From NCBI RefSeq assembly GCF_030269305.1, contig NZ_BSTC01000001.1:757467-821466 (forward strand): a DNA stretch of 64,000 nucleotides, in the 5' to 3' direction. Below are positions 7,133-50,904 of the stretch, piece after piece; positions within the stretch are counted from its first letter, which is position 1; every line of letters begins with the position of its first letter. Position numbers and translations under genes: made by a program. The DNA comes from Kineosporia sp. NBRC 101731. Lineage in GTDB: Bacteria; Actinomycetota; Actinomycetes; Actinomycetales; Kineosporiaceae. Under the pieces are notes generated by a model that was not told where the DNA came from, ran no database searches, and saw nothing but the letters and a program-made list of their open reading frames with translations.

Positions 7133-7185
7133 CGTGATCATGCGATCCCCACCTTCCGGCGGAAGGCGGGGATCGCATGATCACG
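7133..7185. repeat. Palindromic element copy 1 (CGTGATCATGC family), probable terminator
   Basis: A 53-bp palindrome with ends CGTGATCATGC/GCATGATCACG and inner arms GATCCCCACCTTCCG/CGGAAGGCGGGGATC, with one mismatch. It begins 19 bases after the sulfurtransferase stop. Confidence 0.85.
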
Positions 7186-7238
7186 AACAGCCAAGGATGG
7201 GTTGCCATGATGGGGGCCCGACATCCTGAGGAGCCATC

Positions 7239-8225
7239 CTGAACACGCTCGAGAACCGCATCGCCGGAGCCCTGCTCGGCGTCCACGCCGGTGACTCCCT
7301 GGGCGCCAGCCTGGAGTTCATGACCTTCGGGGCCGTGCGTGCCGCCCACCCCGACGGGCTGCGCGAGATCGTCGGCGGCGGACCGTTCGACTGGCCCGCC
7401 GGGCACGCCACCGACGACACCGACCTGACCCGCGCCGTGCTGCTCGCCTACCTGGCCCCGGGCGACGACCTGGTCCGCACCGCCGGTGAGCACATGCTCG
7501 ACTGGTTCGACGGCAACTGGCCCGGTCGCACCCCCGGCAGCCAGCCGTTCGACATCGGTGGGGCCACCACGACGGGCCTCACCCGGTTCCGCGAGACCCG
7601 CGACTGGCGCCGCGCCGGTTCCGGCGCAGGCAGCGCGGGCAACGGTTCGCTGATGCGCTGCATCCCGACCGCCCTGGCCCGGCCCACCGCCGAGCCGGCG
7701 CTGCGGGCGCAGGAGGCCACGGCGATCTCGGCGATCACCCACGACGACCCGCGCTGCGTGCACGCCTGTGTCGCCTACACCGAGATCGTGGTGGCGCTGC
7801 TGGCCGGGGAGAGCCCTCGCGAGGCCGCCGGGGCCGGGCTGCTGGCCATGCGGGCGGTGCGCGGCAGCGATCCGGAAGACGGCGCCGCGGCGGTGGAACT
7901 GGCCATCGGTCAGGGGCTGGACATCGACCTGGAACAGGCCATGGAGCAGGGCGACGCCGGGTTGGCCCACGGCGGCACCGGCTACGTGCTCGACTCCCTC
8001 GCCCTGGCCGTCGCCGCCCTCGTCGACCCGCGCCCGGCCGTCGACCCGCTCGTCGACGTCACCCGCCTCGGCGGTGACACCGACACCAACGGCGCGATCG
8101 CCGGGGGCCTGCTGGGCGCCCGCGACGGTGTCTCCGCATGGCCCGCGTCATGGATTTCGCGGTTGCAGTTCGCCCCCGAGTTCAGGGCCGCAGCCAGCAC
8201 TTTTGCCGCCCGCGCGGAACAGTGA
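7239..8225 (+). CDS. ADP-ribosylglycohydrolase family protein with apparent CTG start
   Basis: A protein of about 328 residues of the ARH/DraG family, which remove ADP-ribose from proteins or small molecules using two Mg ions. Visible motifs are the N-terminal RIAGALLGVHAGDSLGASLE, TDDTDLTRAVLLAYL, GSAGNGSLMRCIPTAL, THDDPRCVHACVAY and the C-terminal metal loop GGDTDTNGAIAGGLLGA. The conserved N-terminus lies upstream of the first ATG (7320). The frame is closed by a TGA at 7227, and no ATG, GTG or TTG lies between. A CTG at 7239 sits five bases after GAGGAG, so it is the best start. The substrate is unknown. Confidence 0.85.
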   Translation: MNTLENRIAGALLGVHAGDSLGASLEFMTFGAVRAAHPDGLREIVGGGPFDWPAGHATDDTDLTRAVLLAYLAPGDDLVRTAGEHMLDWFDGNWPGRTPGSQPFDIGGATTTGLTRFRETRDWRRAGSGAGSAGNGSLMRCIPTALARPTAEPALRAQEATAISAITHDDPRCVHACVAYTEIVVALLAGESPREAAGAGLLAMRAVRGSDPEDGAAAVELAIGQGLDIDLEQAMEQGDAGLAHGGTGYVLDSLALAVAALVDPRPAVDPLVDVTRLGGDTDTNGAIAGGLLGARDGVSAWPASWISRLQFAPEFRAAASTFAARAEQ

Positions 8226-8314
8226 CCGGAACGCTGTGTGCCCCCGGGGGTACCCAGCGTCGGCATCCGCGGCGATACTCGTGAGAGACGCCAGATCGCC
8301 CTAGGGGGTCACGG

Positions 8315-9688
8315 ATGCCGGACAGGGCTCCCGAGGTGGACGACGCGACCTTCGTGTCCGCGTTCGTCTCTCGCTGGGTCGCCGGAAGTCTCGACGTCAC
8401 CCCGCTGACCGAGGCCGACCGTCGTGAGGTCGAGGCGTCGCTGGCCGCGTTGCACGAAGGGCTCGGGCATCGCTGGCACGGCAACGTGGTCTGGGCGCGC
8501 TCGCCCCAGGAACTGCGTCGGTCCCTGACGGGCGCCCCGGCCCTGATGCGCCGGCCCTACCTGGCCTCACGGACCGAGCGCCTCCCCCGGCTCACCCGGG
8601 TCGGTAAGGGGCTCAGCCAGGGCACGATCGTGCTCGGATACTCCTTCCTCGCCACGATGATCACGTTCCTTCCCGCGTACTACGCCGGCTCCCTGATCAA
8701 CTCGCTCAGCGGCCGCCTGCTCGGCCCCGGCGGCGTGGTGATCGTGGTCGCGATCGCCTCCGTACTGGCCGGTCTGTTCTCCGCCCTGGTGCTGAGCCGG
8801 GCCGCGCTCAACTCCGCCCGCCAGGTGTTCGCGCCGATCGGTGAAGATCTCGACCAGCGGCTGCGGCCCCTCCTCACCCAGGGGCGCACCGGCCTTCTCG
8901 ACATCGGGGATCTGGTGCGCCGGGCTGTGGCCGGGCTCTGGGACGAGCGTCTGCTGGAGGGGGCCTGGACCGAGGGCACCCCGGTGCGGGGCTTCCATCG
9001 TGACGGGGTGCTGCACGACCGCGGAGCCGTCGGCGCCGCCCACCAGGCCGCACAGCTCGAGCAGCTCGAGCAGCTCGAGCAGGGGCGGAGGGATGACAGC
9101 GACACCGATCCGCAGATCCAGGCCGCACTGGCCGGTCTGGTCGGTGTGCGCCGGGCCCTGGTCTGGGTGCCCTACACCTGGCTGACCGTGGTGCTGGAAC
9201 CCCCGGTGCAGATCCACACCGAGAAGGCGGGCGACGGCGTGCGGCTGCACCGCGACGACGGCCCGGCGCTGGTCTGGGCCGACGGGCAGGTCGAGTTCTG
9301 CCTGCACGGTGTCCGGATCCCGGCCGCGCTCGCGGCCCGTGAGCCCACCGTGCGCGAGCTGCACACCGAACGGAACTCTGAGGTCCGGCGGGTGCTGATC
9401 GAGAGAGAGGGCTGGGAACACTACGTCACCCGGGCCGGGCTGCAGCTGGTGGGCAGTTCACCCGATCCCGGCAACCCAGGGCGCGAGCTGCGGCTGTACC
9501 GCACCCCGCCGGGAGTGTTCGACTCCGACCGGCTGCTGCTCATGACCAACGGCAGCCCTGACCGCACGGGCACCCTCCGTCACTATGCGGAACTGGTGCC
9601 CGGCACCCTCGACGACCCGGTCGAGGCGGCCGCCTGGCAGTACGGCGTACCGGCCGAGGTGTACCGCGAACTGGCCCGCAGAACCTGA
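8315..9688 (+). CDS. DUF6745-like membrane-associated protein of unknown function
   Basis: A 457-residue protein. There are two hydrophobic helices at about residues 108-132 and 139-163. A Leu-Glu-Gln triplet repeat at about residues 248-256 is encoded by CTCGAGCAG repeats at 9053-9081. The second half carries LHRDDGPALVWADGQVEFCLHGVRIPAAL-type sequence and a TNGSPDRTGTLRHYAELVP block. These match my recollection of the uncharacterised DUF6745 family of actinobacteria, but the name is from memory. It is followed after 38 bases by a small protein gene, probably in one operon. No catalytic motif was recognised. Confidence 0.7.
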   Translation: MPDRAPEVDDATFVSAFVSRWVAGSLDVTPLTEADRREVEASLAALHEGLGHRWHGNVVWARSPQELRRSLTGAPALMRRPYLASRTERLPRLTRVGKGLSQGTIVLGYSFLATMITFLPAYYAGSLINSLSGRLLGPGGVVIVVAIASVLAGLFSALVLSRAALNSARQVFAPIGEDLDQRLRPLLTQGRTGLLDIGDLVRRAVAGLWDERLLEGAWTEGTPVRGFHRDGVLHDRGAVGAAHQAAQLEQLEQLEQGRRDDSDTDPQIQAALAGLVGVRRALVWVPYTWLTVVLEPPVQIHTEKAGDGVRLHRDDGPALVWADGQVEFCLHGVRIPAALAAREPTVRELHTERNSEVRRVLIEREGWEHYVTRAGLQLVGSSPDPGNPGRELRLYRTPPGVFDSDRLLLMTNGSPDRTGTLRHYAELVPGTLDDPVEAAAWQYGVPAEVYRELARRT

Positions 9689-9726
9689 CCGTCACCGGCA
9701 CCGAGAAACCCGAGAAGGAGCACGAC

Positions 9727-10215
9727 ATGCACACATACGGCTCGGCGCTCGCGCTGATCGGCGTCAGCGTGCCCGACCACCTCCAGGCGGGGGCCGGCGT
9801 GCCGGTGCTCCAGGCTCCCCAGGCCCAGGGTGATCTCCTCGTCGTTCCCGTGGCCGACCCCGAGGGCCTGGACCGGTGGCAAGACGTCCCGGACGAGGGG
9901 GAGCAGGTGGTGCACGGCGAGGCCACCGGTAACACCCATTGGCTGCACCACGGTTTCGACTCACCGGGGGTACGCTTCGCCCGGCCCGTCGCCGGCGACC
10001 CGCTGGTGACCTGCTACGTGCAGGTGCCACCGGGGCAGAGCGCGCTGCTCGTGCACACCGATGAACACGGCGCCAACGGTATCGGTGCCGGTACCTACGA
10101 GATCCGCCGCAAGCGCCAGTTCGTGCGCCCCGAGACCGAACTCGGCGCCCACCCGATCACCCGCGGCCTGACTGGCCGTCCCGACGCCAGCGCCTGGGAC
10201 CTGGTCTGGGACTAA
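9727..10215 (+). CDS. Small conserved hypothetical protein, partner of the preceding gene
   Basis: A 162-residue soluble protein, ATG preceded by GAGAAGGAG. Notable stretches are APQAQGDLLVVPVADP, GEATGNTHWLHHG (about residues 64-76), LLVHTDEHGANGIGAGTYEIRRKRQF (about residues 108-133). This pattern of a G-x-TG-x-x-H block followed by a His/Glu/His block and a YEIRRKRQF block recurs in small proteins of actinobacteria and phages; I do not know a function. It ends 11 bases before a perfect palindrome. Confidence 0.75.
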   Translation: MHTYGSALALIGVSVPDHLQAGAGVPVLQAPQAQGDLLVVPVADPEGLDRWQDVPDEGEQVVHGEATGNTHWLHHGFDSPGVRFARPVAGDPLVTCYVQVPPGQSALLVHTDEHGANGIGAGTYEIRRKRQFVRPETELGAHPITRGLTGRPDASAWDLVWD

Positions 10216-10226
10216 CCCCCCAACCC

Positions 10227-10274
10227 TTCGTGATCATGCAAAACCTCCCCGGGGAGGTTTTGCATGATCACGAA
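10227..10274. repeat. Palindromic element copy 2, perfect 48-bp palindrome
   Basis: Each arm is TTCGTGATCATGCAAAACCT plus CCCC, and the two arms are exact reverse complements with no loop. It lies 12 bases after the upstream stop and 57 bases from the convergent helicase stop. Confidence 0.95.
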
Positions 10275-10300
10275 CAGGGAAGAGTGGCGGACGCTTCGTC

Positions 10301-10332
10301 CCCGGCGAGGTCCGGCGAGGTCCGGCGAGGTC
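10301..10332. repeat. Short tandem repeat at the helicase 3' end
   Basis: The 10-bp unit CCGGCGAGGT is repeated about three and a half times just outside and up to the stop codon of the helicase gene. This is probably slippage-type variation with no evident function. Confidence 0.7.
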
Positions 10333-12859: not shown

Positions 12860-12929
12860 GATCTGCCCATCCTCCCACCAAGAGGCTCGTCGGCGAGTCA
12901 TCGCCCACTGCGGGGCCACCCGACTGAAG

Positions 12930-12975
12930 GAAGGACGAAGGTGAGCTTCCGGCCGGAAGCTCACCTTCGTCCTTC
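12930..12975. terminator. Perfect 46-bp palindrome after the ABC permease gene
   Basis: Arms of 23 bp (GAAGGACGAAGGTGAGCTTC plus CGG) are exact reverse complements with no loop, ending 15 bases from the permease stop at 12991. It is probably the terminator of the ABC operon. It resembles the dispersed palindromes in size and symmetry but has unrelated ends. Confidence 0.8.
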
Positions 12976-12990
12976 ATCGGGTGGGGTGGA

Positions 12991-15546: not shown

Positions 15547-15548
15547 CG

Positions 15549-16325: not shown

Positions 16326-16419
16326 CGCTTCTCCTCCTCAGGCATGGTGTTTCGACTGAGGAAGACGCTACGGGGGCGGGTGGTACCGGCACATCGCGCG
16401 GCGGGATGATCCCGGGGCA

Positions 16420-16435: not shown

Positions 16436-16458
16436 CACCCCTCCTCCGCCGGGAGGGT

Positions 16459-18434: not shown

Positions 18435-18469
18435 CGTGCCACCGTACGTTCGCGGGCCCCGGTCACACG

Positions 18470-19491: not shown

Positions 19492-19497
19492 CCGCAG

Positions 19498-28133: not shown

Positions 28134-28178
28134 CGTGATCATGCGAAGTGTCCCCCGGGGACACTTCGCATGATCACG
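28134..28178. repeat. Palindromic element copy 3, probable terminator
   Basis: A 45-bp palindrome with 22-bp perfect arms and one central base: CGTGATCATGCGAAGTGTCC plus CC, then its reverse complement. It begins ten bases after the exporter stop. Confidence 0.95.
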
Positions 28179-36822: not shown

Positions 36823-36829
36823 AAGAGCT

Positions 36830-39938: not shown

Positions 39939-39952
39939 CAACAAACTTCGTT

Positions 39953-40035
39953 CGTGATCATGCAAAACCTCCCCGGCGTTCTAGAACTGTTCCCTTCAGA
40001 GTTCTAGAACGCTGGGGAGGTTTTGCATGATCACG
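39953..40035. repeat. Palindromic element copy 4 with internal GTTCTAGAAC
   Basis: An 83-bp palindrome. Outer arms CGTGATCATGCAAAACCTCC match the other copies. Inner arms carry GCGTTCTAGAACT on each side, with a short unpaired centre. It lies 15 bases after the peptidase stop and 13 bases from the convergent ohr stop. Confidence 0.93.
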
Positions 40036-40047
40036 GAAGGGGTTTGC

Positions 40048-40482
40048 TCAGTCGCTCTCGGACCCCAGCAGCAGCACTTCCTGGCTGATGTTGCCCCGGG
40101 TGGCGCGGGAGTAGGGGCACCTCTCGTGGGCCAGTTGCAGCAGGTGCTGCGCGGTCGCCGTGTCCACCCCGCCGATCTGGGCCTCGATGCGGGCGGCCAG
40201 GTCGAGGCCGGTCTCCCGGCTGCCGACCAGGCTGATCGTCACCGACACCGCGGAGTCGCTGACATCGACCTTCTCCGCCCGGGCGGCACTCTTCAGCGCA
40301 CTGTGGAAGCAGGCCGCGTAGCCGGTGGCGAAGAGCTGCTCGGGATTGGTGCCCGGACCGTCGTCCCCACCCAGCCCGGCGGGCATCGACAGGGGAACGT
40401 CGATGCGCCCGTCGGACGACGCGGCCCGTCCCTCGCGGCCTCCCCAGGCCGTCGATGTCGCGCTGTAAAGAGCTTCCGCCAT
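40048..40482 (-). CDS. ohr: Organic hydroperoxide resistance protein (Ohr/OsmC family)
   Basis: A 144-residue thiol peroxidase that reduces organic hydroperoxides. The two catalytic cysteines are Cys58 in FATGYAACFHSAL and Cys122 in ERCPYSRATRGN, the Ohr subgroup pattern. The conserved Arg lies in GGREGRAASSDGRIDVPL. No OhrR regulator gene is adjacent; the neighbour upstream is a divergent LuxR-type regulator, 123 bases away. Confidence 0.94.
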   Translation of the reverse strand: MAEALYSATSTAWGGREGRAASSDGRIDVPLSMPAGLGGDDGPGTNPEQLFATGYAACFHSALKSAARAEKVDVSDSAVSVTISLVGSRETGLDLAARIEAQIGGVDTATAQHLLQLAHERCPYSRATRGNISQEVLLLGSESD

Positions 40483-40592
40483 CAGTGTTTCCTCGTTCCA
40501 CAGGTGGTCCCGGATGGTGCAACCGCTATCCTTCCGGACCTTGGCGGCACCGGCACATCCTGAGGTCTGATAACTCTATGTCGCCACCCTGC

Positions 40593-40606
40593 TACGTTTT
40601 GTGGTG
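40593..40606 (+). promoter_or_regulatory. Possible leaderless -10 of the LuxR-type regulator
   Basis: TACGTT at 40593-40598 ends seven bases before the GTG at 40606. GTG triplets at 40601 and 40604 are also possible starts in other registers. Confidence 0.35.
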
Positions 40607-43173
40607 TGGGGGAGCAGGGGTCAAGAGTCTGGCGTCACGACGAACCCGCCGGTCCGGTTGTTACGGGTGGGGCGGACGATGGTTGGTGGTTCCGGGATGC
40701 CGTGCTGCGCCTGCCGCAGACGCATCCCGGGCGCGACGTGCTCGTCGTCGGCGCCCCGCCCGGTTCCGGCCGCACGCGGCTGGTGCGGCGCTGGCTGGAG
40801 ACGGCTGGGGCGGCGTGGAGCTGGGTCGAGCTGTCGGGTGCGGTCACCTCGCCGATGACGGACGTTGTCGGCCCCGCGGTCCGTGGTCACCTCGACCGGG
40901 ACGGACCGGGCGGGTTCCTCGTGGTGGAAGCCGTCGACGTGCTGAGCCCGGCCGAGCTGGAAGAGCTGGTCCCGGCGGCGGCCGGGCTGCGCCTGGTGCT
41001 GCTGGGGCGGGGTGACGTACTGCCGTCCGGCCTGGCGGTGCGGCTCGCCGGCCGCGTCGCGCGGGTGCGGGGAGAAGACCTGTGGTGGCCGGCCGAGCGG
41101 GTGCAGTCGCAGGTGGCAGCGCTGACCGGCGCCCACATCGACATCGCCCGCGCCGACCGCATCCATCGCCTCACCGCCGGCTGGCCCGCCGGTGTGCTCT
41201 CCCTCGGCGCCCGTTCCCGGGTGCCCGCCCCCCGCCGCGACGCCGACACGGGCCCGGTCACGCAGGAGGGGGTCGTCGACGACCTGGTCCTGCGCGGGAT
41301 CCCCGCGCCGCTCCTGGAATTCGTGCTCGCCACCAGTCTGCTGCCCGGCCGGGCGCCCGACCCGGAGCTGTGCGCGGCCCTCGTACCCGGTGCCAACCCC
41401 GCCCGCCTGCTCGACGAGGCCCGGCGCTGGGGGCTGACGGCCGATCGCTGGCCGTTCACCGATCCGGATGTCCTGCCCGGCAGCGTCTATCACCCACTGG
41501 TCGCGGCGGCCGCCCGGCGGATGCGGGCCCGTCGGGGCGCCGGTGACGCCGAGAATCTCCGCCACGCCGGTGTGGCGGCCTCCGCGCTGGGGCGTAGTCC
41601 GCTGGCGGTCGACCTCTTCCGGGCCGCAGGAGCCTGGCAGCAGGTTCTGGTCGAATTGGAAGGCTCTGCGCCGCAAGGATTCCAGGGATGGGAGGGGGCG
41701 CATCTGCATGAGGTCATCCAAGCCCTGCCCGCACCGGTGTGGGCTGCCGGGGCCCAGGGCCGGGCCCTGGTCGCCTTCGCCGCCGCGATCTGCGGGGACC
41801 ACCTGATGGCGGCCGAGGTGCTGACCCCCGCCCCGCCGGTGGAATGGTGGCCGGCCGTGACCGGTCTGATCGGTGCCCTGGGTGGATCCACCGATGCCTG
41901 GAATCCCGAGAACGCATCTCCCTTGGAATGTTTCGGCATTCGCGACGGCTATGCCCTGAACGCCACGATCGAGGTGCTGGCTGCCCGGTCGGCCGCGTTC
42001 GCCGGCGACCAGGGCGCGGCCGCCCGGCACCTCGCGTCTGCCTGGGAAACCGGTGCCGACCGGCTGCCGCGCTACGTGCTGCTCGCCGGCCTCGGCGTGG
42101 ATGCGCTGGTCGCAGCCTGGGCGGGCGAGCTCTCCGCCGCCGGGCGGCTGGCCGATCGGGCATTCCGGCTTGCCGCTCAGGCCGGTCTGGACGGGCACCC
42201 GCTGCTCACCACGGCCGTACTGGCCCAGGCCGAGGTCCTGCGTTCCCGGGGCGAAGCCGCGGCCGCCCTGGAAGGTCTCACCGCAGCCGCCGGGATCCTC
42301 GGCGCCGGAGCCGACTTCGTGGTCACCGCGGCCGGGGGAGCCGCCCCTGCCCAGGCCCATCGGGTGCTGCGGGCCCGGCTTCTGCTCGACCTCGGCGACC
42401 GGGCCGCGGCGCGGGACGAGCTCGCCGCCCTGCACGCCGACGGCGACGAGCACCTGCCGCCCGCACTCGCCGTGCGACTGGCCCTGGCCCACGCCCGGCT
42501 CGCCGAGCTCGACGGCGACCTGGCCGCCGCCCAGTCCCGGCTGGAGGCCGCGCCCGGCGTGCCCGCGATCACCTCGGCCCTGCTGTTCGTCACCCTCCAG
42601 CGTCAGGACCAGCACGAGACCGCCGCCGTGATGGCCCGGTTCCCCGCCGATGCCGGTCCGGAAGACCGCCTGCGCCGCATCCTGTCCCAGGCCGCGCAGG
42701 CGCTCGCCGAAGGCCGTCGCGGCGCGGCGAACGACCTGGTCAACGAGGCCCTGGTGGCGGCCGAGCCGGACGGCCACCTGCGGGTCTTCCTGGATGTCCC
42801 AGCTGCGTTGCGGATGCTGATCTCGACCACGCTGCGCCGGGCGCCGGACGCTTCGCACTGGCGCCGTTGCCTGACCTCCCGGCTCGACGACGCCGGGGCC
42901 GACGACGACACCGTCGGCGTGACCCGGCGCGAGCTGGTGGTGCTCGAGCAGCTCACGACCGACCTGACACACGCCCAGATCGCGGCCGGGCTGTTCGTCT
43001 CGGAGAACACCCTCAAGTCGCACTGCCGCAATCTCTACCGAAAGCTCGGCGTCCACAGCCGGGAGGAAGCGGTCCGGATCGCCCGGGTCAAGGGCTGGCT
43101 GAGTTCCTCGCCCCGGGGTGACTCGGTGATCGATGTCAATATCACCCCGACGCCTGAGGTCATCGAACTGTGA
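40606..43173 (+). CDS. Large LuxR-family transcriptional regulator with a degenerate ATPase
   Basis: An 855-residue MalT/LAL-like regulator. The N-terminal nucleotide-binding region has VVGAPPGSGRTRLVRRWL (about residues 46-63), where the Walker A Lys is Arg. The usual Walker B aspartates are replaced (GGFLVVEAVDVL). A long helical, Ala/Leu-rich middle (about residues 230-740) looks like TPR-type repeats. The C-terminal LuxR helix-turn-helix is GVTRRELVVLEQLTTDLTHAQIAAGLFVSENTLKSHCRNLYRKL (about residues 769-812). It probably binds DNA in response to a ligand or partner, without full ATPase switching. It is transcribed toward the receiver/kinase pair and may control it. Confidence 0.87.
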   Translation: MGEQGSRVWRHDEPAGPVVTGGADDGWWFRDAVLRLPQTHPGRDVLVVGAPPGSGRTRLVRRWLETAGAAWSWVELSGAVTSPMTDVVGPAVRGHLDRDGPGGFLVVEAVDVLSPAELEELVPAAAGLRLVLLGRGDVLPSGLAVRLAGRVARVRGEDLWWPAERVQSQVAALTGAHIDIARADRIHRLTAGWPAGVLSLGARSRVPAPRRDADTGPVTQEGVVDDLVLRGIPAPLLEFVLATSLLPGRAPDPELCAALVPGANPARLLDEARRWGLTADRWPFTDPDVLPGSVYHPLVAAAARRMRARRGAGDAENLRHAGVAASALGRSPLAVDLFRAAGAWQQVLVELEGSAPQGFQGWEGAHLHEVIQALPAPVWAAGAQGRALVAFAAAICGDHLMAAEVLTPAPPVEWWPAVTGLIGALGGSTDAWNPENASPLECFGIRDGYALNATIEVLAARSAAFAGDQGAAARHLASAWETGADRLPRYVLLAGLGVDALVAAWAGELSAAGRLADRAFRLAAQAGLDGHPLLTTAVLAQAEVLRSRGEAAAALEGLTAAAGILGAGADFVVTAAGGAAPAQAHRVLRARLLLDLGDRAAARDELAALHADGDEHLPPALAVRLALAHARLAELDGDLAAAQSRLEAAPGVPAITSALLFVTLQRQDQHETAAVMARFPADAGPEDRLRRILSQAAQALAEGRRGAANDLVNEALVAAEPDGHLRVFLDVPAALRMLISTTLRRAPDASHWRRCLTSRLDDAGADDDTVGVTRRELVVLEQLTTDLTHAQIAAGLFVSENTLKSHCRNLYRKLGVHSREEAVRIARVKGWLSSSPRGDSVIDVNITPTPEVIEL

Positions 43174-43214
43174 TTATCTGGGAGCATTCTCGCCGGACAG
43201 CGCAACGAATCGTG

Positions 43215-43226
43215 CTGTTCGAACAG
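43215..43226. promoter_or_regulatory. Perfect 12-bp palindrome CTGTTCGAACAG, possible operator
   Basis: It lies in the 171-base gap between the LuxR-type regulator and the receiver gene, about 120 bases ahead of the latter. It may be a regulator site; there is no second copy to support this. Confidence 0.3.
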
Positions 43227-43344
43227 TGCCGACGGGGGAATCGGCCGGCCCCGGCTTCGTGCCGCGAGGGAGATCATTGGGGGGCGGGCGGCACATGAGA
43301 ACTTCTTGCACGACAACGGTGACGGTCTGGCCGGGGGCACTGTG

Positions 43345-43827
43345 GTGACACAGGGGCACACAGACTGGATCCTGCTCGTCGACGACTCGGCCGAAGACCG
43401 TGAGCTGCTCCAGCACACGCTGCGGCGCAACAAGTTCCATGGCCGCGTCGAAGAGGCCCGGGACGGTCTGGAAGCGATCGACCGGCTCTGCTGCCGCGGC
43501 CGCTGGGCGGACTCCGACCCGAACGACCTACCACGGGCCATCTTTCTCGATGTGAAGATGCCACGGATGTCCGGTGTCGAGGTGCTGCGCGAGCTGCGCT
43601 CCGTACCGCAACTGGCCGTCGTGCCGGTGGTGATGCTCACGTCTTCCGCCGAGGAGCGGGACATCCTCGACAGTTATGCCCTCGGCGCCAACAGCTACGT
43701 CGTCAAGCCGGTCGACATGGACGAGTACTTCCGGTCCATCGCGGACGTCGGACGTTACTGGGTCGCCCTGAACCGAACACCGACGGAGTACCCACGTGCC
43801 AACACCACTGCGCCTGCTGGTCGCTGA
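43345..43827 (+). CDS. Single-domain response regulator (Rcp1-like)
   Basis: A receiver-only protein of about 160 residues: ILLVDDSAEDRELLQHTL, phospho-Asp in AIFLDVKMPRMSGVEVL, VVMLTSSAEERDI, and the conserved Lys in ANSYVVKPVDMDEYF. The proline after Lys and the long loop before the Asp are typical of Rcp1-type regulators partnered with cytosolic kinases. GTG at 43345 (or 43342) follows GGGGG. Its 3' end overlaps the kinase gene by 32 bases, so it is probably the kinase's phosphotransfer partner. Confidence 0.88.
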   Translation: MTQGHTDWILLVDDSAEDRELLQHTLRRNKFHGRVEEARDGLEAIDRLCCRGRWADSDPNDLPRAIFLDVKMPRMSGVEVLRELRSVPQLAVVPVVMLTSSAEERDILDSYALGANSYVVKPVDMDEYFRSIADVGRYWVALNRTPTEYPRANTTAPAGR

Positions 43828-45280
43828 GGACTTCCCGCCGGACGCCGAGCTCATTCTCTCGGAGGTCCGGCGGGCCGGATACGACCCGGTGGCGACCGTG
43901 GTCGACACGGCGGGCAAGTTCCTGCGTGCTCTCGACGACGAGCCCGAGGTCGTGATCTGCGACTACACGCTGCCCACGATGACGGCGCCCGACGCGCTGG
44001 CCATTCTCCAGGCCAAATCGCCCGACCTGCCGCTGATCGTCGTCTCCGGCACGATGGACGAGGCGACGTGCGTGAACTCCCTGCGCCTGGGGGCCGCCGA
44101 CTACCTGCTGAAAGACCGGCTGTCCCGGCTCGGGCCGGCCATCGACCACGCCCTGGCCCGGCGGGAGCTCGACCGGGTGGCCCGGCTGGCCGAGCAGCGT
44201 CGCGACGAGACCATGAACATCCTGCTCGGCCTGGTCGAGAACTCGGTCGCCGCTATCAGTGTGCAGAACCTCAGCGGCAACACGATGGTCAGCAACGACC
44301 TGTACAAACAGCTGTCCACCGACCATCCGCCGCTGGCCAGCGCCGCCCCGATCCGCACAGCGGGTGTCGAGGTGCTGCAGCGGCAGGAACTGTTCACGGT
44401 CGACGGCGAGCAGCGCACGTTCCACGCCGTGCGGTATCCCGTGCGCGACGGCACCGACACGGTGTTCGCGGTCGGCTCGATCCTCGTCGACATCACCGAG
44501 CAGAAACGGATCGAGGCCGATCTGCGCAAGGCCCGCACCGAGCTGGAGGGCCGCAACGAGCAGCTCGACGTGGCCAACGCCGAGCTGCGGGAGGTCGACC
44601 GTCTGAAGACCGAATTCGTCGCGTCGGTCAGCCACGAGCTGCGCACCCCGCTGACCAGTATCCGCGGCTACGCCGAGCTGCTGCTCGACGAGGCGGACGA
44701 GGGCGACACCCAGACCACGAAGATGCTCGACATCATCGACCGCAACGCCCGTCGGTTGCTGAGCCTGGTCGAAGACCTGCTGCTGCTCTCGAAGATCGAC
44801 TCGCGCACGCTCACGCACGAGTTCGTCGAGGTCGACCTGACCGATCTGGCCGAGGGCGCCCTGCTGGTGCTGCGACCCAGCGCGGAGACCGCCGATGTCC
44901 GGCTGGCCCTCGAGGCGTCCGGCGTGCTACCGGTGCTCGGAGACCGATCGCAGCTGGAGCGGGTGCTTCTCAACCTCCTGAGCAATGCCATCAAGTTCTC
45001 CCAGAAGGGTGGGGACGTCGTGGTCAGGGGCGAGGTCAGCGGGAGTGAGGTGGTGATCAAGGTGGTCGACTCCGGACTCGGCGTCTCCGCCGAGGAGCTG
45101 CCGAAACTCTTCAACCGCTTCTTCCGCTCGGCCAGCGATGCCGCCCACAAGATCCCGGGCACCGGCCTCGGCCTGGCCGTGGTCCGCGAGATCGTCGAGA
45201 ACCACGGCGGTTCGGTGGGAATGGAATCGGTTCTGGGAGAGGGAAGCACGGTCACCGTGCGGCTGCCCCGGCGGAAGTGA
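43796..45280 (+). CDS. Hybrid cytosolic sensor: receiver-PAS-histidine kinase
   Basis: A 494-residue protein, GTG start, no membrane segment. Receiver domain (residues 1-125): LLVAEDFPPDAELIL, VVICDYTLPTM (phospho-Asp), VVSGTMDE, DYLLKDRL. A PAS-like region (about residues 140-240) ends in SILVDITEQKRIEADL. A coiled coil leads into HisKA VSHELRTPLTSIRGYAELLL (phospho-His) and HATPase (NLLSNAIKFSQKG, VVDSGLGVSAEELPKLFNRFFR, GTGLGLAVVREIVENHGG). It is a paralogue of the kinase at 51138. Confidence 0.92.
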   Translation: MPTPLRLLVAEDFPPDAELILSEVRRAGYDPVATVVDTAGKFLRALDDEPEVVICDYTLPTMTAPDALAILQAKSPDLPLIVVSGTMDEATCVNSLRLGAADYLLKDRLSRLGPAIDHALARRELDRVARLAEQRRDETMNILLGLVENSVAAISVQNLSGNTMVSNDLYKQLSTDHPPLASAAPIRTAGVEVLQRQELFTVDGEQRTFHAVRYPVRDGTDTVFAVGSILVDITEQKRIEADLRKARTELEGRNEQLDVANAELREVDRLKTEFVASVSHELRTPLTSIRGYAELLLDEADEGDTQTTKMLDIIDRNARRLLSLVEDLLLLSKIDSRTLTHEFVEVDLTDLAEGALLVLRPSAETADVRLALEASGVLPVLGDRSQLERVLLNLLSNAIKFSQKGGDVVVRGEVSGSEVVIKVVDSGLGVSAEELPKLFNRFFRSASDAAHKIPGTGLGLAVVREIVENHGGSVGMESVLGEGSTVTVRLPRRK

Positions 45281-45288
45281 CGCCCAGC

Positions 45289-45323
45289 GACCCGGACACG
45301 ACGTCGTCCGTCGTGTCCGGGTC
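45289..45323. terminator. Bidirectional hairpin between the convergent kinase and GT2 genes
   Basis: A 15-bp perfect stem GACCCGGACACGACG/CGTCGTGTCCGGGTC with a five-base loop. Confidence 0.85.
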
Positions 45324-45329
45324 TTCCGC

Positions 45330-46766
45330 TCAACTGGCCGATGCCCCGCTCGTCTCCTTGAATCCGACCCGGGGCATCTCACCCCAGGCCGCGTTCGAGC
45401 CGCGGATGCCCGACCACAGACCCCGCAGACGCCAGAAGGCGTGCAGCTGACGGAATCCGAAGTTCTCCAGGAAGGCGGCGACCAGCAGGATGCCGAGATC
45501 CTTCCAGCGGCGGTAGGTCTGGTACGACAGGTCGTCGACCACGATCGCGACGACCGAGAGCAGGATGCCGTAGCCGATGGCCACCAGCGCGTAGAGCACG
45601 GCCGCCTGCCAGTTCAGGATGCCGAAAGCGATCCCGAGGGGGAGGCAGATCAGGCCGAGGATCTCCACGACCGGCGTGAGCAGCTCGAAGACCACGTAGT
45701 ACGGCAGCACCAGCAGGCCCATCCGGCCGTAGCGGGGGTTGGCGATCATGCCGCGGAAGCGCCACAGCACCTCGAGCAGACCGTGCGACCACCGGCGACG
45801 CTGCCGGCCGAGAATTTTCAGGTTCTCCGGAACCTCGGTCCAGCACACCGGGTGCGGTACGAAAACAATCCGGTAGTCCTGCTTCTCGTGACGCAGTCGG
45901 TGATGCAGGCTGTTCACCAGGTCGGCGTCCTCGGCCAGCGAGTCGGCGGTCAGGCCACCGATCTGCTGCACCAGGTCGCGACGGAACAGGCCGAACGCGC
46001 CAGAGATGATCATCAGGCCGTTGAACGCCGACCAGCCGACCCGGCCGAGCAGGAACGAGCGCAAGTACTCGACCACCTGGATGCGGGGTGCCCAGGCCTT
46101 CGGGAGGCGCTTCTCGAGAATCATGCCGCGCTCGGTGGGACAGCCGTTGATCGGGCGAATGGCGCCGCCGGTGGCGGCCACTCGTTCCGGGTCGTCGACG
46201 AAGGGCCGCACCACGTGCATCAGTGCATCCTTCTCCAGCACCGAGTCGGCGTCGATCATGCAGACCAGCGGATAGCGGGAGTACTCCAGCGCGACGTTCA
46301 GGGCGTCACCGCGGCGACGGGCGTTCTCCTTGCGGATGACCACGATCTGGCCGTCCCGGGAGATGTGCACGGAGTTCACCGTGCCCACGGTCTCCACCAC
46401 ACCGGCTGCGACCCGGGTGCTGGGCTGGAGCTCGAACTCCTCCTGGAGAACATCGAAGGTGCCGTCGGTGGAACCGTCGTCGACGATCACCACCTCGAGC
46501 TGGGGGTACCGCAGGTCGAGGATCGAGTGCACGCTCGACACGATGCTCGGTTCCTCGTTGTAGGCGGGGACGAGGACCGACACGCCGGGAGTCAGCGGGT
46601 TGGCGAACAGGTCTTCCAGGGCCGTCTCCGACGACATCCGCTGGGCGCGCCGCTGCGCCCGGGACGCGATCAGCACGATCACCAGGTAGAGCGAGTTCAG
46701 TGCCAGGAAATAGATGATGACGAACGAGTTGAACCCGATGACGGCGGATTCCAGGAAATCTCTCAT
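45330..46766 (-). CDS. Membrane glycosyltransferase family 2 (processive BcsA/NodC-like)
   Basis: A 478-residue protein. N-terminal membrane helix (about residues 8-33), GT-A domain with LVPAYNEEPSIVSSV, VVIVDDGSTDGTF, CMIDADSVLEKDAL (DxD), LAEDADLVNSL (catalytic Asp) and the QRRRW motif (GRQRRRWSHGLLEVL), then three or four C-terminal helices (about residues 335-425). This is the arrangement of polysaccharide synthases that extrude a beta-linked chain. The N-terminus lacks a PilZ or other c-di-GMP domain. It is the last gene of the receiver-HEAT-GT2 operon, 11 bases after the HEAT gene. Confidence 0.9.
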   Translation of the reverse strand: MRDFLESAVIGFNSFVIIYFLALNSLYLVIVLIASRAQRRAQRMSSETALEDLFANPLTPGVSVLVPAYNEEPSIVSSVHSILDLRYPQLEVVIVDDGSTDGTFDVLQEEFELQPSTRVAAGVVETVGTVNSVHISRDGQIVVIRKENARRRGDALNVALEYSRYPLVCMIDADSVLEKDALMHVVRPFVDDPERVAATGGAIRPINGCPTERGMILEKRLPKAWAPRIQVVEYLRSFLLGRVGWSAFNGLMIISGAFGLFRRDLVQQIGGLTADSLAEDADLVNSLHHRLRHEKQDYRIVFVPHPVCWTEVPENLKILGRQRRRWSHGLLEVLWRFRGMIANPRYGRMGLLVLPYYVVFELLTPVVEILGLICLPLGIAFGILNWQAAVLYALVAIGYGILLSVVAIVVDDLSYQTYRRWKDLGILLVAAFLENFGFRQLHAFWRLRGLWSGIRGSNAAWGEMPRVGFKETSGASAS

Positions 46767-46777
46767 GAGTGGCCCCT

Positions 46778-47875
46778 CTACAGCGAGATCAGCGGCGTGG
46801 TGTTCGTGGCGATCGAGTTCCTCGCAAGGACCTCCCGGGCCGCGTCACCACCCTCGGCGTCCCGCTGCGCAATCTCGCGCAGCCGGTCGAGACCGGTCTC
46901 CCCGAACGGCACCAGAGCCATGGCGGCAGCCACCCGGACGGTGGGGTGCGGATGTGCGACCGCCTGTTCCAGCTCGGGCATGGAGGCCGGATCGATGATC
47001 CGGCCGAGTGCGGTGCACGCCGCGGCGAGGACCTCGACGTCCTCCTCCGTGCGCAGCATCGCGGTCAGGTCGTCGACCGAGCTGGGCAGGCTGAGACGAC
47101 CGAGGGCGTGGGTGGCGCCGAGTCGCACCGAGACACTGGGATCGACCCGCATCCGGATCTGCAGCTCGGACACCGCGGGGTAGACACCCAGCACACCGAG
47201 CACCTCCGCGGCGATGGTGCGGACCTCGACCTGTTCCGCGTTCAGCGCCTGGGTCAGCGCCTGGGTGGCGTCGGCCCCGATGCGCAGCAGCGCCATGGTC
47301 ACCGGGTGGGGCGGAAGCGGGTACTTCTGCCCCACCTCGGAGTCCAGGTGCTCCAGCAGGGCGGTGCCGGCCTCACCGGTGCCGATCCGGCCCAGAGCCC
47401 GCACGGCGGCGAGCCGCACATCGGTGCTGTGGTCGGCCAGCAGCTTCGCCGCCTCCGGGACCCCTTCACCGACCCCGGCCGCGCCGAGCAGCTCGACGGC
47501 GCGGTACCGCCGCACGGCGACCCGTGACGACGTGTTCTGCCGGGCCGCGTCGATCGTGCCGCGTCGCCGCAGGATGTCGACCAGAACACTCCGGTCGGCA
47601 CCCCGCAGCTTCGGCAGCAGGCCCGCCACCAGTTCCTCGAACGAGGTGGTGACGCCGTGGTACCCGATGAGCATGTCGGCGAGGTCGTGCGCATCGCCGT
47701 CCTCCCAGGTGGCCAGGTACCGCATCATCACCGGCCGGAGCTGGGCCAGCTCCTCCTCATGATGCTTGGCGCGGCGTTCGCGGCGGGCCTTCAGCAGGGC
47801 CGTGCTCAGGGAGAGCCCGATGATCAGGGCCAGGTTGAGAGTCGCGGCGACCAGAAGGACCGCCTCGGTACTCAC
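46778..47875 (-). CDS. Membrane-anchored HEAT-repeat protein
   Basis: A 365-residue protein. One N-terminal membrane helix (about residues 4-25) is followed by a basic, helical stretch (LLKARRERRAKHHEEELAQL). Repeated HEAT units follow, such as VRLAAVRALGRIGTGEAGTALLEHL, VRTIAAEVLGVLGVYPAVSEL, VRLGATHALGRLSLPSSVDDL, VLAAACTALGRIIDPASMPEL and VRVAAAMALVPFGETGLDRL. HEAT arrays are protein scaffolds. It starts at a GTG overlapping the receiver gene stop by four bases. I infer that it links the receiver to the membrane glycosyltransferase. Confidence 0.87.
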   Translation of the reverse strand: MSTEAVLLVAATLNLALIIGLSLSTALLKARRERRAKHHEEELAQLRPVMMRYLATWEDGDAHDLADMLIGYHGVTTSFEELVAGLLPKLRGADRSVLVDILRRRGTIDAARQNTSSRVAVRRYRAVELLGAAGVGEGVPEAAKLLADHSTDVRLAAVRALGRIGTGEAGTALLEHLDSEVGQKYPLPPHPVTMALLRIGADATQALTQALNAEQVEVRTIAAEVLGVLGVYPAVSELQIRMRVDPSVSVRLGATHALGRLSLPSSVDDLTAMLRTEEDVEVLAAACTALGRIIDPASMPELEQAVAHPHPTVRVAAAMALVPFGETGLDRLREIAQRDAEGGDAAREVLARNSIATNTTPLISL

Positions 47876-48246
47876 CTCGGGGTCCGGGCCAGCAGCGCGT
47901 CGATCCGGCTGGACAGCTCGCGCGGACTGAAGGGTTTGATCACGTAGTCGTTGCCGCCGGCGGCAAAACCCCGCTGGACGTCTGACTCCTGGGCCTTCGC
48001 GGTGAGGAAGAGCACCGGGATGTCGGCCATCGATGGGTCTTTGCGCAGTTCCAGGCAGACCTCGATGCCGCTCATGCGCGGCATCATCCAGTCCAGCACC
48101 ACGACGTCCGGTCGGACGTCCATGATGGCGGCCAGTCCGGCCTCCCCGTCGGCCTCGGCGGTCACCGTGTGACCGGCCGCAGACAGCTTGAATTCCAGCA
48201 GACCCCGGATGTCGGAGTCGTCGTCCACAACGACGATGCTGCTCAT
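47872..48246 (-). CDS. Single-domain response regulator (CheY-like)
   Basis: A 124-residue receiver: IVVVDDDSDIRGLLEF (acidic pocket), phospho-Asp52 in VVVLDWMMPRMSGIEV, VLFLTAKAQESD, and the Lys in DYVIKPFSPREL. There is no output domain, so it acts through a protein partner. ATG at 48246 follows GAGGAGACCGAC. First gene of the operon with the HEAT protein and GT2 synthase. Confidence 0.92.
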   Translation of the reverse strand: MSSIVVVDDDSDIRGLLEFKLSAAGHTVTAEADGEAGLAAIMDVRPDVVVLDWMMPRMSGIEVCLELRKDPSMADIPVLFLTAKAQESDVQRGFAAGGNDYVIKPFSPRELSSRIDALLARTPR

Positions 48247-48389
48247 GTCGGTCTCCTCGGTCGTACGACGGTTTACCGCCGGAGGGCAACCTGCCTCCCG
48301 ACTCCCCACCGCATCGACGTAAGCCCGAATGGGCTACAGGGTGAACTAGCAACAGCCCGCCCCTCACCCAAGTGCTAGCCCACCCTTGC

Positions 48390-48478
48390 CGTGATCATGC
48401 AAATCCCCCAGCCTTCGGCCGGGAGGTGCCCCCACTCCCCAGAGTTCTAGAACTCTGGGGAGGTTTTGCATGATCACG
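48390..48478. repeat. Palindromic element copy 5, asymmetric with one long arm
   Basis: Ends are CGTGATCATGC and GCATGATCACG. The right half has the short-arm form (GGGGAGGTTTTGCATGATCA). The left half has the long-arm form with an inserted CCCCCAGCCTTCGGCCGGGA block. The centre CCCCAGAGTTCT/AGAACTCTGGGG is a perfect palindrome. It lies ten bases beyond the queA stop. Confidence 0.92.
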
Positions 48479-48487
48479 AACGGTTTT

Positions 48488-49525
48488 TCAGGGCAGGAGC
48501 AGGCAGCTGTCGCCGAACTCGTGCCAGCGGTATCCGCTGCTCGCGGCCCGCTCGTACGCCGCCTGCACCAACTCCGCCCCGCCCACGGCCTCGAGCATGA
48601 GCAGGTGCGAGGCTTCCGGGTCGTGCCAGCCGGTGATCAGGCCGTCCACCGTGCGCACCGGACGGGCGGGCGAGATGACCAGATCCGTCCACCCTCGCGC
48701 GGGTCGTACTCGGCCGTCCGGCCCGGTGGCCGCCTCCAGCGCACGGGTGACGGTGGTACCCACAGCGACCACGCGGCCACCCGTCCGGCGGGTCCAGTTC
48801 ACCAGGGCCGCGGTCGATTCCGGCACCCGATAGGGCTCGGCCGGGGGTGCCTCACCGGTCTCCAGCGACGAGACCCCGGCGTGCAGGGTGATCGGGGCCA
48901 GCCGAATTCCCGCAGTTACCAGCCGGGTCACCAGCTCGTTGGTGAACGGACGCCCGGCACTGGGCATCTCGGCGCTCGCGCCGGGATCGCGCGGGTCGGC
49001 GAACACCGTCTGGTAACTCTCCAGAGGCCAGGGGTGCTTCAGGTAGCCGTAGCGGATCGGCCGGGCCGCGGGGAACAAGGGGACGCCGGTGAGCGGCTCG
49101 GTGCGCCAGAGCCGGGTTCCGTGGCGGTGGTCGGAGCGGCCGTGCGGGGCCGTCAGCCGGACCTGCGGTCCACCGGCCAGCCGGATCCGGTCGCCGGGCA
49201 CGCACGTCCGTACTTGCCCGGCGCCGTCCGGGGCGCTGCGCACCTCCACCACCCACGCGCCGTCGGGTAGTTCGGTGGACAGGTGCACGACCACCGGCCC
49301 GAGGCGGTGGTGCTCACCGTCGAGGGCTGCCGCCCGGGTCGCGGAGGTGTTGACCACGAGTAGGTCGCCAGGACGCAGGTGGTCGCCGATCCGGTGGAAC
49401 GTCGTGTCGTGCAGTTGGTTCCGGTCGGCCACCAGGAGGCGGACGTGGTCCCGGGCGATACCCCGGGCCTCCGGCGGCTCGGTCGCCTCGGCGTCGTGCG
49501 GAAGGGCGAAGGTGATGGCGCTCAT
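48488..49525 (-). CDS. queA: QueA-family S-adenosylmethionine:tRNA ribosyltransferase-isomerase
   Basis: A 345-residue QueA homologue. QueA builds the cyclopentene-diol ring of queuosine on tRNA using the ribosyl part of SAM. Motifs: RLLVADRNQLHDTTFHRIGDHLRPGDLLVVNTSATRAAAL, GDRIRLAGG, PIRYGYLKHPWPLESYQTVFADPRDPGASAEMPSAGRPFTNELV, ITLHAGVSSLETGEAPPAEPY, GRVVAVGTTVTRALEAA, and GWTDLVISP. No other queuosine gene is in the window. The pairing with an SDR under a SoxR-side promoter is unusual for tRNA modification. ATG overlaps the SDR stop by four bases. Confidence 0.87.
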   Translation of the reverse strand: MSAITFALPHDAEATEPPEARGIARDHVRLLVADRNQLHDTTFHRIGDHLRPGDLLVVNTSATRAAALDGEHHRLGPVVVHLSTELPDGAWVVEVRSAPDGAGQVRTCVPGDRIRLAGGPQVRLTAPHGRSDHRHGTRLWRTEPLTGVPLFPAARPIRYGYLKHPWPLESYQTVFADPRDPGASAEMPSAGRPFTNELVTRLVTAGIRLAPITLHAGVSSLETGEAPPAEPYRVPESTAALVNWTRRTGGRVVAVGTTVTRALEAATGPDGRVRPARGWTDLVISPARPVRTVDGLITGWHDPEASHLLMLEAVGGAELVQAAYERAASSGYRWHEFGDSCLLLP

Positions 49526-50217
49526 GCCGTCGCCCCCACGTGTTCCCCGGCGGACGCCAGGTAGCGCCCGTTCGGCGGGCGCTGTGCGATCAGCTGCAGG
49601 AGGGCCGGCGCCACGGTCTCCGGAAGCGGCCGGTCGGAGATGTCCTCGTCCGGAAAGGCCGCTTGATGCATGGGCGTTCGGAGGTCTCCGGGGTCGAACG
49701 CGTAAACCCGGACGCTGCCGGTGCACTCCGCGCCGAGCACCGCGCTGATCTGCTCGAGCGCGGCCTTCGTGGAACCGTAGCCTCCCCAGCCCGGGTAGAC
49801 GGCACTGGCCGCGTCCGAGGTGATGTTGACGATCGTGCCGTGTCGTTCGGCCAGCACCGGCACCGCGAGCTGGATCAGTCCCAGCGGTGCGATCACGTTG
49901 ACCCGGAACAGGTCTTCCAGTGAGCTGAGCGGGAACTCGGCCAGTGACGGCAGCGGACTCGGGCCGAGCCCGCCGGCATTGTTGACGAGCAGGTCGAGGC
50001 CGCCGAGCTCAGTGCAGGCAGAGAGCAGTTCGCGACGGTGGCGGGCATCGGTCACATCGCCCGGATGAAGGTGTACGCGGGGCAGGTCGCCGACCGCGTG
50101 GGCCAGCCGGGAGGCGCCCCGGGCATCGACGACGACCTCCCACCCCTCCTGGGACAGGGCGGTGGTCAGGGCCTGGCCGAGACCGCTGGAGGCACCGGTG
50201 ATGAGTGCGACGGGCAT
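49522..50217 (-). CDS. Short-chain dehydrogenase/reductase
   Basis: A 231-residue SDR: NAD(P)-binding LITGASSGLGQALTTAL (residues 5-21), GDVTDARHRRELL, LVNNAGGLGPSPLPSL, IVNITSDAASAVYPGWGGYGSTKAALEQI, with the catalytic Ser-Tyr-Lys as S, Y and K of the latter, and DPGDLRTPM. Substrate unknown. It is the first gene of an SDR-queA operon divergent from soxR, so it is probably under SoxR control. Confidence 0.9.
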   Translation of the reverse strand: MPVALITGASSGLGQALTTALSQEGWEVVVDARGASRLAHAVGDLPRVHLHPGDVTDARHRRELLSACTELGGLDLLVNNAGGLGPSPLPSLAEFPLSSLEDLFRVNVIAPLGLIQLAVPVLAERHGTIVNITSDAASAVYPGWGGYGSTKAALEQISAVLGAECTGSVRVYAFDPGDLRTPMHQAAFPDEDISDRPLPETVAPALLQLIAQRPPNGRYLASAGEHVGATA

Positions 50218-50258
50218 GTCTTCTCCCGATGTCGAATGGTTTTCGCTTCGTCAACATC

Positions 50259-50290
50259 TTGCTAGTTGAAGTCAACTTCAGGTCTAGTAC
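50259..50290 (+). promoter_or_regulatory. SoxR-type promoter with operator in a 20-bp spacer
   Basis: TTGCTA (50259-50264) and TAGTAC (50285-50290) are separated by 20 bases, the long spacer typical of MerR-family promoters. The spacer holds the inverted repeat TGAAGTCAACTTCA (50267-50280). It sits between soxR and the divergent SDR gene and may control both. Confidence 0.6.
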
Positions 50291-50299
50291 CCTGATCGC

Positions 50300-50779
50300 A
50301 TGACTTCCGACGAGAAGCCACGGGCCGATCAGCTGCTCACGATCGGCGAACTGACCCGGCGCAGTGGCCTGGCCGCCTCGGCGCTGCGCTTCTACGAGCG
50401 GGAGGGTCTGATCTCGGCCACCCGCACCTCCGGGGGCCAGCGGCGCTACGAGCGGGCGGTGCTGCGCCGCCTGGCGTTCATCCGGGCGGCCCGCAGCGTC
50501 GGTCTCTCGCTGGAAGAGGTGCGTGACGCGATGGATCGCCTTCCCGCCGCCCGCACCCCGACCAAGGCCGACTGGACCGGTATCTCGCGGTCGTGGTCGC
50601 GGCGCCTGGACGAGCAGATCGAGGCACTCACCGCCCTGCGCGACAAGCTGGACTCCTGCATCGGGTGCGGCTGTCTCTCCCTGGCCCGCTGCCGCATCTC
50701 CAACGCCGAAGACCTGGCGGCCCAGACCGGCCCGGGCGCGGCCTACCTACCCCCGGCCCTACGCCGCCCCGCGCAGTAA
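50300..50779 (+). CDS. soxR: Redox-sensitive transcriptional activator SoxR
   Basis: A 159-residue MerR-family regulator. The DNA-binding domain has LTIGELTRRSGLAASALRFYEREGLI (residues 13-38). The [2Fe-2S] site is Cys120, Cys123, Cys125 and Cys131 (C-x2-C-x-C-x5-C, CIGCGCLSLARC), the SoxR signature. It switches transcription when its cluster is oxidised by redox-cycling compounds. In actinobacteria SoxR commonly controls oxidoreductases and exporters linked to secondary metabolites; here the divergent SDR-queA pair is the likely target. Confidence 0.94.
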   Translation: MTSDEKPRADQLLTIGELTRRSGLAASALRFYEREGLISATRTSGGQRRYERAVLRRLAFIRAARSVGLSLEEVRDAMDRLPAARTPTKADWTGISRSWSRRLDEQIEALTALRDKLDSCIGCGCLSLARCRISNAEDLAAQTGPGAAYLPPALRRPAQ

Positions 50780-50792
50780 CCCCCCTTTCTCC

Positions 50793-50904
50793 CGTGATCA
50801 TGCAAAACCTCCCCGGTGTTCTAGAACTCTCACGATGACAGTTCTAGAACTCTGGGGAGTGGGGGCACCTCCCGGCCGAAGGCTGGGGGATTTGCATGAT
50901 CACG
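50793..50904. repeat. Palindromic element copy 6, longest copy
   Basis: A 112-bp element. The left arm has the short form (CGTGATCATGCAAAACCTCC, then GTTCTAGAAC). The right arm is the long form. Read in reverse complement it matches the left arm of copy 5 base for base over about 64 bases. It begins 14 bases after the soxR stop. Confidence 0.93.

Follow-up and report, generated by a model that had tools for sequence, protein, structure and literature searches.

Tagged repetitive extragenic palindromic (REP) sequences are known in a GTAG and a CGTC class, mostly from Proteobacteria; an enzyme, the REP-associated tyrosine transposase (RAYT), has been proposed for the GTAG class alone, according to the accessible portions of Di Nocera 2013 (PMC3733652). 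These portions name Proteobacteria, Cyanobacteria, Chloroflexi, Planctomycetes-Verrucomicrobia-Chlamydiae (PVC), Chlorobi, Bacteroidetes, Spirochaetes and Thermotogae, and no word beginning with "actino" occurs in the text of the paper. The palindromes described here lie in a soil actinobacterium, Kineosporia, within a 64,000-nucleotide stretch (the window; C1:757467-821466 of the 8.26-Mb host genome), and are bounded by inverted copies of an 11-bp word, CGTGATCATGC, hereafter the tag. A sequence-only reading had described six of them as a dispersed element adopted as a terminator. The explanation that fits best is a superfamily of REP-like repeats that are non-autonomous, carry an 11-bp tag for recognition and were recruited for termination; we infer both mobility and termination, and hold this reading about evenly probable, with a slight lean in its favor.

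The elements resemble the GTAG/CGTC REPs in a short tag that is common across species while the stems differ, in a position downstream of genes and between convergent or unidirectional genes, and in occurring as head-to-head dimers, singles and clusters; the CGTC class likewise has no dedicated transposase (accessible portions of PMC3733652). As these portions describe them, REPs carry an unpaired tetranucleotide tag on a 20-40 bp unit that is itself a stem-loop, whereas the Kineosporia tag has 11 bp and is paired in the dimer, and its monomer units form no meaningful fold (as DNA, the seven tested give 0 to -2.7 kcal/mol; one has a z of -2.0, the others are within 0.9 sd of shuffles). With REPINs (REP doublets forming hairpins; available passages of Bertels and Rainey 2011, PMC3116915) the elements have in common inverted doublets that form a hairpin with a spacer between and are over-represented in the genome. 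They differ from the REPIN/RAYT system in that the tested monomers lack a stable hairpin and in that no Y1 transposase (PF01797) was matched in the host (G000), K. mesophila, G007, G042, G105, G269 and G040, seven tag-rich genomes with 66-454 tags. The Kineosporia repeat works like a REP or REPIN and is not classed as one.

A likeness of another kind is to the I-shaped or U-lacking terminators of GC-rich bacteria, GC-rich stem-loops at transcript ends without a U-tract; the available part of a Term-seq study of Streptomyces clavuligerus (PMC8269248) counts 353 structured ends without a U-tract versus 182 U-rich ones. Such terminators are defined by structure, whereas the Kineosporia hundreds have a common 11-bp word and half-stem. 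Among the PubMed Central (PMC) matches listed, no paper appears to describe the CGTGATCATGC repeat, and those listed for GTGATCATGC and its complement all look unrelated by title.

Tagged palindromes across the Kineosporia genome

All six claimed palindromes are present, with 12/12 half-sites exact at their places. The window holds 21 tag matches with at most one mismatch versus 1.63 expected, a number that 0/100 shuffles reach, so these tags are not chance. Genome-wide, 454 exact tags were counted on both strands of the host (about 55 per Mb) and 426 in K. mesophila JCM 16902 (G003), with 0 and 1 for the reversed control. Among the other members of a set of five congeners (G001-G005, also written G1-G5), G005 has 39, G002 31, G001 17 and G004 10 exact tags; elsewhere in the family, G007, from another genus, has 151 and six further genomes 6-13 each, the reversed control being 0 throughout. 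The proposal of a dispersed palindromic family is thus borne out, with the host and K. mesophila far above four congeners, and so is the claim that these are not independent look-alike terminators, since the shuffle and reversed-pattern controls exclude chance.

A hairpin scan without the tag as input found GATCATGC as the commonest 8-mer in host arms (19/88 hairpins), TGATCATGC in 22/88, and tag 8-mers as the commonest in K. mesophila (12/21); in G5 tag 8-mers were found in 0/15 hairpins and no 8-mer in more than two. The scanned stretches of G007, G105, G042 and G269 were chosen around elements and are hence biased. In K. mesophila, exact tags separated by 10-40 nt form 42 pairs, and it is the only named genome with the 44-bp pattern (27 loci).

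The arrangement of tags was followed in host C1:1-1261466, a contiguous sample not selected for elements, in which 1064 genes were called by our own caller. Here 31/49 tag clusters are inverted (+-) doublets and 72/86 tags lie in inverted pairs, so that inverted doublets with conserved ends are over-represented, as in REPINs. Two reversed pairs, at C1:356061-356094 and 616776-616819, have their tags facing (GCATGATCACG...CGTGATCATGC) and the usual half-stems outside, a tail-to-tail order. Two long stretches, C1:280000-465000 and 1004135-1261466, have few tags and no full element, and are perhaps regions acquired after expansion.

In its 44-bp form, the element consists of the tag, six variable pairs and a nearly fixed TCCCC/GGGGA core. 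Among 27 distinct 44-mers of the host and K. mesophila, each variable pair takes 3-4 Watson-Crick types, and 276/297 cells of the inner stem are paired versus 232.9 +- 4.4 with reshuffled right halves (at most 246 in 500 shuffles). The tag itself hardly varies, while the stem inside changes by paired substitutions. The 42-mers of G007 (124/150 paired versus 125.8 +- 1.8) vary too little for a covariation test. The two full palindromes tested fold far beyond shuffles (z -10.3 and -13.0). Across six profiled lineages, the unit starts with CGTGATCATGC after a C/T-rich variable flank. Outer flanks pair with their own partner better than with reshuffled ones in G007 (n 28, -20.80 versus -18.18 +- 0.53) and in the host (n 36, -11.33 versus -10.36 +- 0.39; best shuffle -11.46), and weakly in K. 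mesophila (n 50, -11.33 versus -10.69 +- 0.43); G269 and G042 (n 5 each) show no gain, and the effect is reversed in G105 (n 12, -16.50 versus -17.98 +- 0.85).

Longer forms extend this plan. The 83-bp form adds a GTTCTAGAAC inner stem, and the 106-112-bp form adds a Streptomyces-type hairpin, GTGGGGGCACCTCCCGGCCGAAGGCTGGGGGA, in one arm. Inside the 112-bp element this hairpin is identical in 32/32 bases to a Streptomyces plasmid, and 11/14 hits of the 112-mer among plasmid records (E up to 10) are from Streptomyces. The matching stretch there lacks the CGTGATCATGC tag, whereas in Kineosporia the hairpin, which we take to be dispersed in Streptomyces chromosomes, occupies one arm of a composite. 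It is found in one arm of the 89-112 bp elements at 48390-48478 and 50793-50904 of the window and at C1:598211-598322 of the host; these appear to be two repeat kinds fused.

Placement, related lineages and candidate mobilizers

The 1.26-Mb sample contains 45 elements (at most two mismatches over both tags; 33 exact), 20 between convergent, 17 between tandem and 6 between divergent genes, and 2 inside called genes. Thirty-one of the 37 non-divergent intergenic elements start no more than 40 nt past a stop codon (median 16; three overlap the called end by 5), and four of the other six fall in a 10-kb stretch without called genes. In this stretch of about 10 kb, C1:259430-266381 carries four elements in about 7 kb, three of them with 2 tag mismatches. 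The convergent share is 20/43 elements (4 in the stretch without gene calls) versus 87/606 gaps of at least 60 nt. The placement is therefore that of REPs: high in copy number, extragenic and downstream of tandem or convergent genes.

The sequence-only reading also saw adopted terminators in these elements. Position and structure fit, as a stable hairpin just past a stop codon is one mark of an intrinsic terminator: 31/37 non-divergent intergenic elements lie within 40 nt of a stop, and the two window elements tested fold stably. No U-rich tract follows the stem in the six window elements, whose right flanks read, for example, AACAGCC or GAAGGGG, and gene ends of G5 gave no clear excess of hairpins (see below). 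A scan for consensus terminators in window 38000-52000 found 3 U-tailed sites versus 3.4 expected, one of them an inner hairpin of the 48390 element. From sequence, the element hairpins are inferred to act as terminators.

The tag reaches beyond Kineosporia. Exact tag pairs with 8-38 nt between occur in 7/394 genomes of the class and, within the order, in 14/198 genomes and 9/72 genera (control 0 in both; the two draws overlap), 5/14 coming from the window's own family. A T-variant, GTGATCTTGC, forms exact pairs in 3/158 class genomes, of which G153 has three pairs and the remaining two have a single pair apiece. The same tag bounds distinct, lineage-specific half-stems, among them ACTTTCGA (G007), AATCCCGCCACC (G042), ACGCCAGCGCA (G269), A[CG][AG]TCCTGGG (G105) and AGG[TG]A (G516), a pattern that suggests a hitherto undescribed family of small repeats. 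G042 has 294 tags in 3.1 Mb, and G105 has 301 versus 3 in its congener G058 (reversed control 0-1 per strand). The unit of about 22 nt frequently stands alone or in direct repeats in G105, G042 and G269, and this single or tandem occurrence outside Kineosporia resembles REPs and bacterial interspersed mosaic elements (BIMEs). The 98 tags listed for C1 of G105 form 47 clusters, of which 23 consist of a single tag, 8 are inverted pairs, 3 are direct and 13 are larger, and 100/109 tags listed in G269 form 64, of which 35 consist of a single tag, 11 are inverted, 5 are reversed, 6 are direct and 7 are larger; inverted pairs make up 24/33 clusters in G007, in stretches chosen around pairs. On contigs C1, C4 and C5 of G040, several tags are directly repeated at a distance of exactly 22 bp, roughly two turns of the helix, a spacing that could suit a protein binding one DNA face. 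In G153 (L137, around 9350-9600), a tagged palindrome is nested between inverted CGTGATCTTGC and GTGATCTTGTAGTTTGTCGCA copies, a different repeat that likewise holds GTGATC.

Candidate mobilizers and foreign origins were searched as well. Mobilization by RAYT is rejected for the seven tag-rich genomes tested, as these lack a Y1 transposase; PF01797 is also absent from G170, a genome without a tag count, and is present in G153 and G389, with one exact tag pair each, and in the tag-poor G001 and G009. IS110 is rejected as mobilizer, too: it occurs in 4/8 tag-rich versus 4/6 tag-poor genomes and so does not follow tag number, and it is absent from the host and K. mesophila. A phage origin found no support in IMG/VR, where 11 contigs match the 22-mer half pattern without an inverted tag partner near and the exact pair pattern gives 0 matches. 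These 11 look by eye like coding DNA and are, by our estimate, about as many as chance would give for 16 specified bases; phage records gave 2 weak matches.

Shared sites and the weighing of explanations

Twenty-one of the 29 elements in host C1:520001-981466 could be placed in a K. mesophila stretch. Sixteen of these sites hold an element there (several with tag mismatches), three have none, one retains just one tag, which has one mismatch, and one (618778) is uncalled. Conversely, 22/60 K. mesophila rows were placed in the host at 17 distinct sites, 16 with a host element (one degenerate, one clipped by the alignment) and 1 empty. In the 14 pairs in which both elements are recognised, clipped, degenerate and empty sites being dropped, mean identity is 92.9% in the flank, 97.7% in the tag and 74.0% in the interior (32 to 98%), a contrast of tag and interior that is indicative only, as flanks are mostly coding and tags were chosen at no more than two mismatches. 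Some arms are chimeric and mix subfamilies (for example G3:287270), and at one site the change between the 83-bp and the 106-112-bp form affects an arm only. The comparison of empty sites that the sequence-only reading had proposed thus gave a mixed answer, the sites being mostly common to both species and their contents frequently not. In G5, 22 host sites were placed, of which three carry tags. No exact tag lies elsewhere in the 360-kb stretch of G5, and the 6 at these sites form a 34-bp pair, a reversed pair and a direct repeat. Since these tags lie at sites of host elements and are otherwise arranged, some sites predate what they now contain.

In the proposed REP-like mechanism, the elements would be inverted dimers of a unit of about 22 nt, composed of the nearly fixed tag CGTGATCATGC and a lineage-specific half-stem. 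The tag would be the recognition site of a trans-acting factor by which units are copied or exchanged; in those tag-rich genomes that were tested, this factor is not a Y1 (RAYT-type) transposase. A word of 11 bp that is conserved between orders next to freely varying stems argues for sequence-specific recognition, and bursts of copies with a common half-stem argue for copying. Copying would proceed in bursts that differ between lineages, recombination would exchange units between copies, and copies just past stop codons would be retained because their 44-112 bp hairpin may terminate transcription in both directions without a U-tract or protect 3' ends.

Several results weigh against this mechanism. 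No mobilizing gene was found among the two transposase families searched, Y1 (PF01797) and IS110, and where neighboring elements of the 1.26 Mb are separated by less than 4.5 kb, the genes in between look ordinary on inspection by eye. The alignment of five presence/absence sites gave neither a clean empty site nor a target duplication; in four of them about 35-145 nt of flank differs together with the element, and the junctions are ragged. Most placed sites are common to both sister species, which implies that insertion is slow or that the expansion predates the split. At orthologous G5 gene ends, 7/14 carry a strong hairpin against 17/51 controls (51 control genes placed of 90 tried), no clear difference; in G1, G2 and G4, 2/11 rows have a z below -2, giving 9/25 overall with G5. 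Finally, part of the conservation of the tag in the aligned sets follows from its use in selecting them (up to 2 mismatches).

A first alternative takes the tag as the binding site of a conserved DNA- or RNA-binding protein, such as a termination, nucleoid or 3'-end factor, with hairpins kept or re-evolved by selection and no mobility. It would account for a nearly fixed tag on varying stems, for the same tag in distant lineages and for shared sites with reorganised tags in G5. It is unlikely nonetheless, as tag numbers of 3 and 301 in two congeners, and of anywhere between 10 and 454 within Kineosporia, are uneven for a housekeeping site, and selection on an 11-mer would not yield whole half-stems common to many loci of one genome. 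Just as improbable is an origin without any dedicated enzyme, by ectopic recombination, gene conversion and template switching among hundreds of hairpin copies descended from few ancestors. Mosaic arms, symmetric replacement at shared sites, the arm-only change between the 83-bp and 106-112-bp forms and the ragged junctions are what such exchange would produce, but it leaves unexplained both the 11 bp conserved across orders beside a free stem and the reaching of new sites without homology.

The 11-bp inverted ends, short length and dispersed copies recall a miniature inverted-repeat transposable element (MITE), a deleted insertion sequence with the tag as terminal inverted repeat. This is very improbable, as the five aligned sites show ragged junctions in place of a target duplication, units also occur single and directly repeated, and no transposase-like gene was seen by eye between the copies less than 4.5 kb apart in the 1.26 Mb. 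Independent intrinsic terminators whose likeness is due to chance or composition, or a word for DNA uptake that doubles as a terminator, would explain the position after genes, and in other bacteria uptake words are indeed found in terminator hairpins, but the former is excluded by the controls and the latter fits poorly with about 55 tags per Mb, 72/86 tags in inverted pairs and very uneven counts between congeners, so that either is hardly credible.

Elements of the window and meaning for the family

Measured between outer tag bases, the six palindromes of the window are 53, 44, 45, 83, 89 and 112 bp long, close to the range of 45-112 bp first given; one set of claimed ends, 10227-10274, adds TT/AA. 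Their distances from the nearest stop codon are 18, 13 (11 from 10227), 9, 14, 9 and 13 nt, so that the 10-19 nt first stated is nearly right. The first element (7133-7185, 53 bp, interior GATCCCC...) lies between tandem genes, 18 nt past the stop of a rhodanese-like gene (6227-7114), and its K. mesophila site keeps a single tag with one mismatch. The second (10227-10274, 44 bp from tag to tag, 48 bp with TT/AA) consists of two AAAACCTCCCC half units between convergent genes, and the orthologous K. mesophila site holds an element with one symmetric change. The third (28134-28178, 45 bp; host C1:785600), in a tandem setting, has the half unit GAAGTGTCCCC; K. mesophila has CGACCTTCCCC on both arms within flanks that are 96-97% identical, and 5/6 variable positions have changed on both arms. 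In the fourth (39953-40035, 83 bp, convergent), a AAAACCTCCCC stem is continued by the GTTCTAGAAC inner stem, and the same flanking sequences in G5 enclose two directly repeated tags.

The two composite palindromes follow. The first, 48390-48478 (89 bp), follows the stop of 48488-49525, a minus-strand gene on its right, at a distance of 9 nt and also lies 143 nt upstream of the next minus-strand gene; one arm carries the hairpin also found in Streptomyces, and the K. mesophila site has the 83-bp form. The second, 50793-50904 (112 bp, tandem), starts 13 nt after a MerR-type gene (50300-50779) and is missing in K. mesophila along with about 40 nt of flank. A seventh, degenerate element, overlooked in the sequence-only reading, lies at 545-608 (host C1:758011-758074); it has two inverted 1-mismatch tags, ends in CGTGATCAGGC / GCCTGATCACG and has a degenerate counterpart in K. 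mesophila. Rfam gives no match in the window at gathering thresholds.

That the elements never stand in a promoter holds for all six; elsewhere, 6/43 intergenic elements of the 1.26 Mb lie between divergent genes by our own gene calls. Mobility had been placed in trans on the ground that the window has no transposase. None of 10 proteins adjoining the elements is a transposase, and one has no Pfam match, in a check that left out the neighbors 40048-40386 and 51138-52715 and the remaining window proteins; mobility in trans is possible.

A wider claim may be put forward tentatively, at somewhat less than even probability: CGTGATCATGC would define a third large superfamily of tagged bacterial repeats, across Actinomycetia, in which a hitherto undescribed non-RAYT enzyme recognises the paired tag, as DNA or hairpin, and spreads and exchanges the repeats, terminators being interchangeable cassettes at sites that outlast their contents. 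If true, this would suggest that tagged palindromic repeats arose more than once, and the finding would point to a novel mobilizing or conversion activity. The pairs G105/G058, with 301 versus 3 tags, and host/K. mesophila would then be ready material for finding the mobilizing factor.

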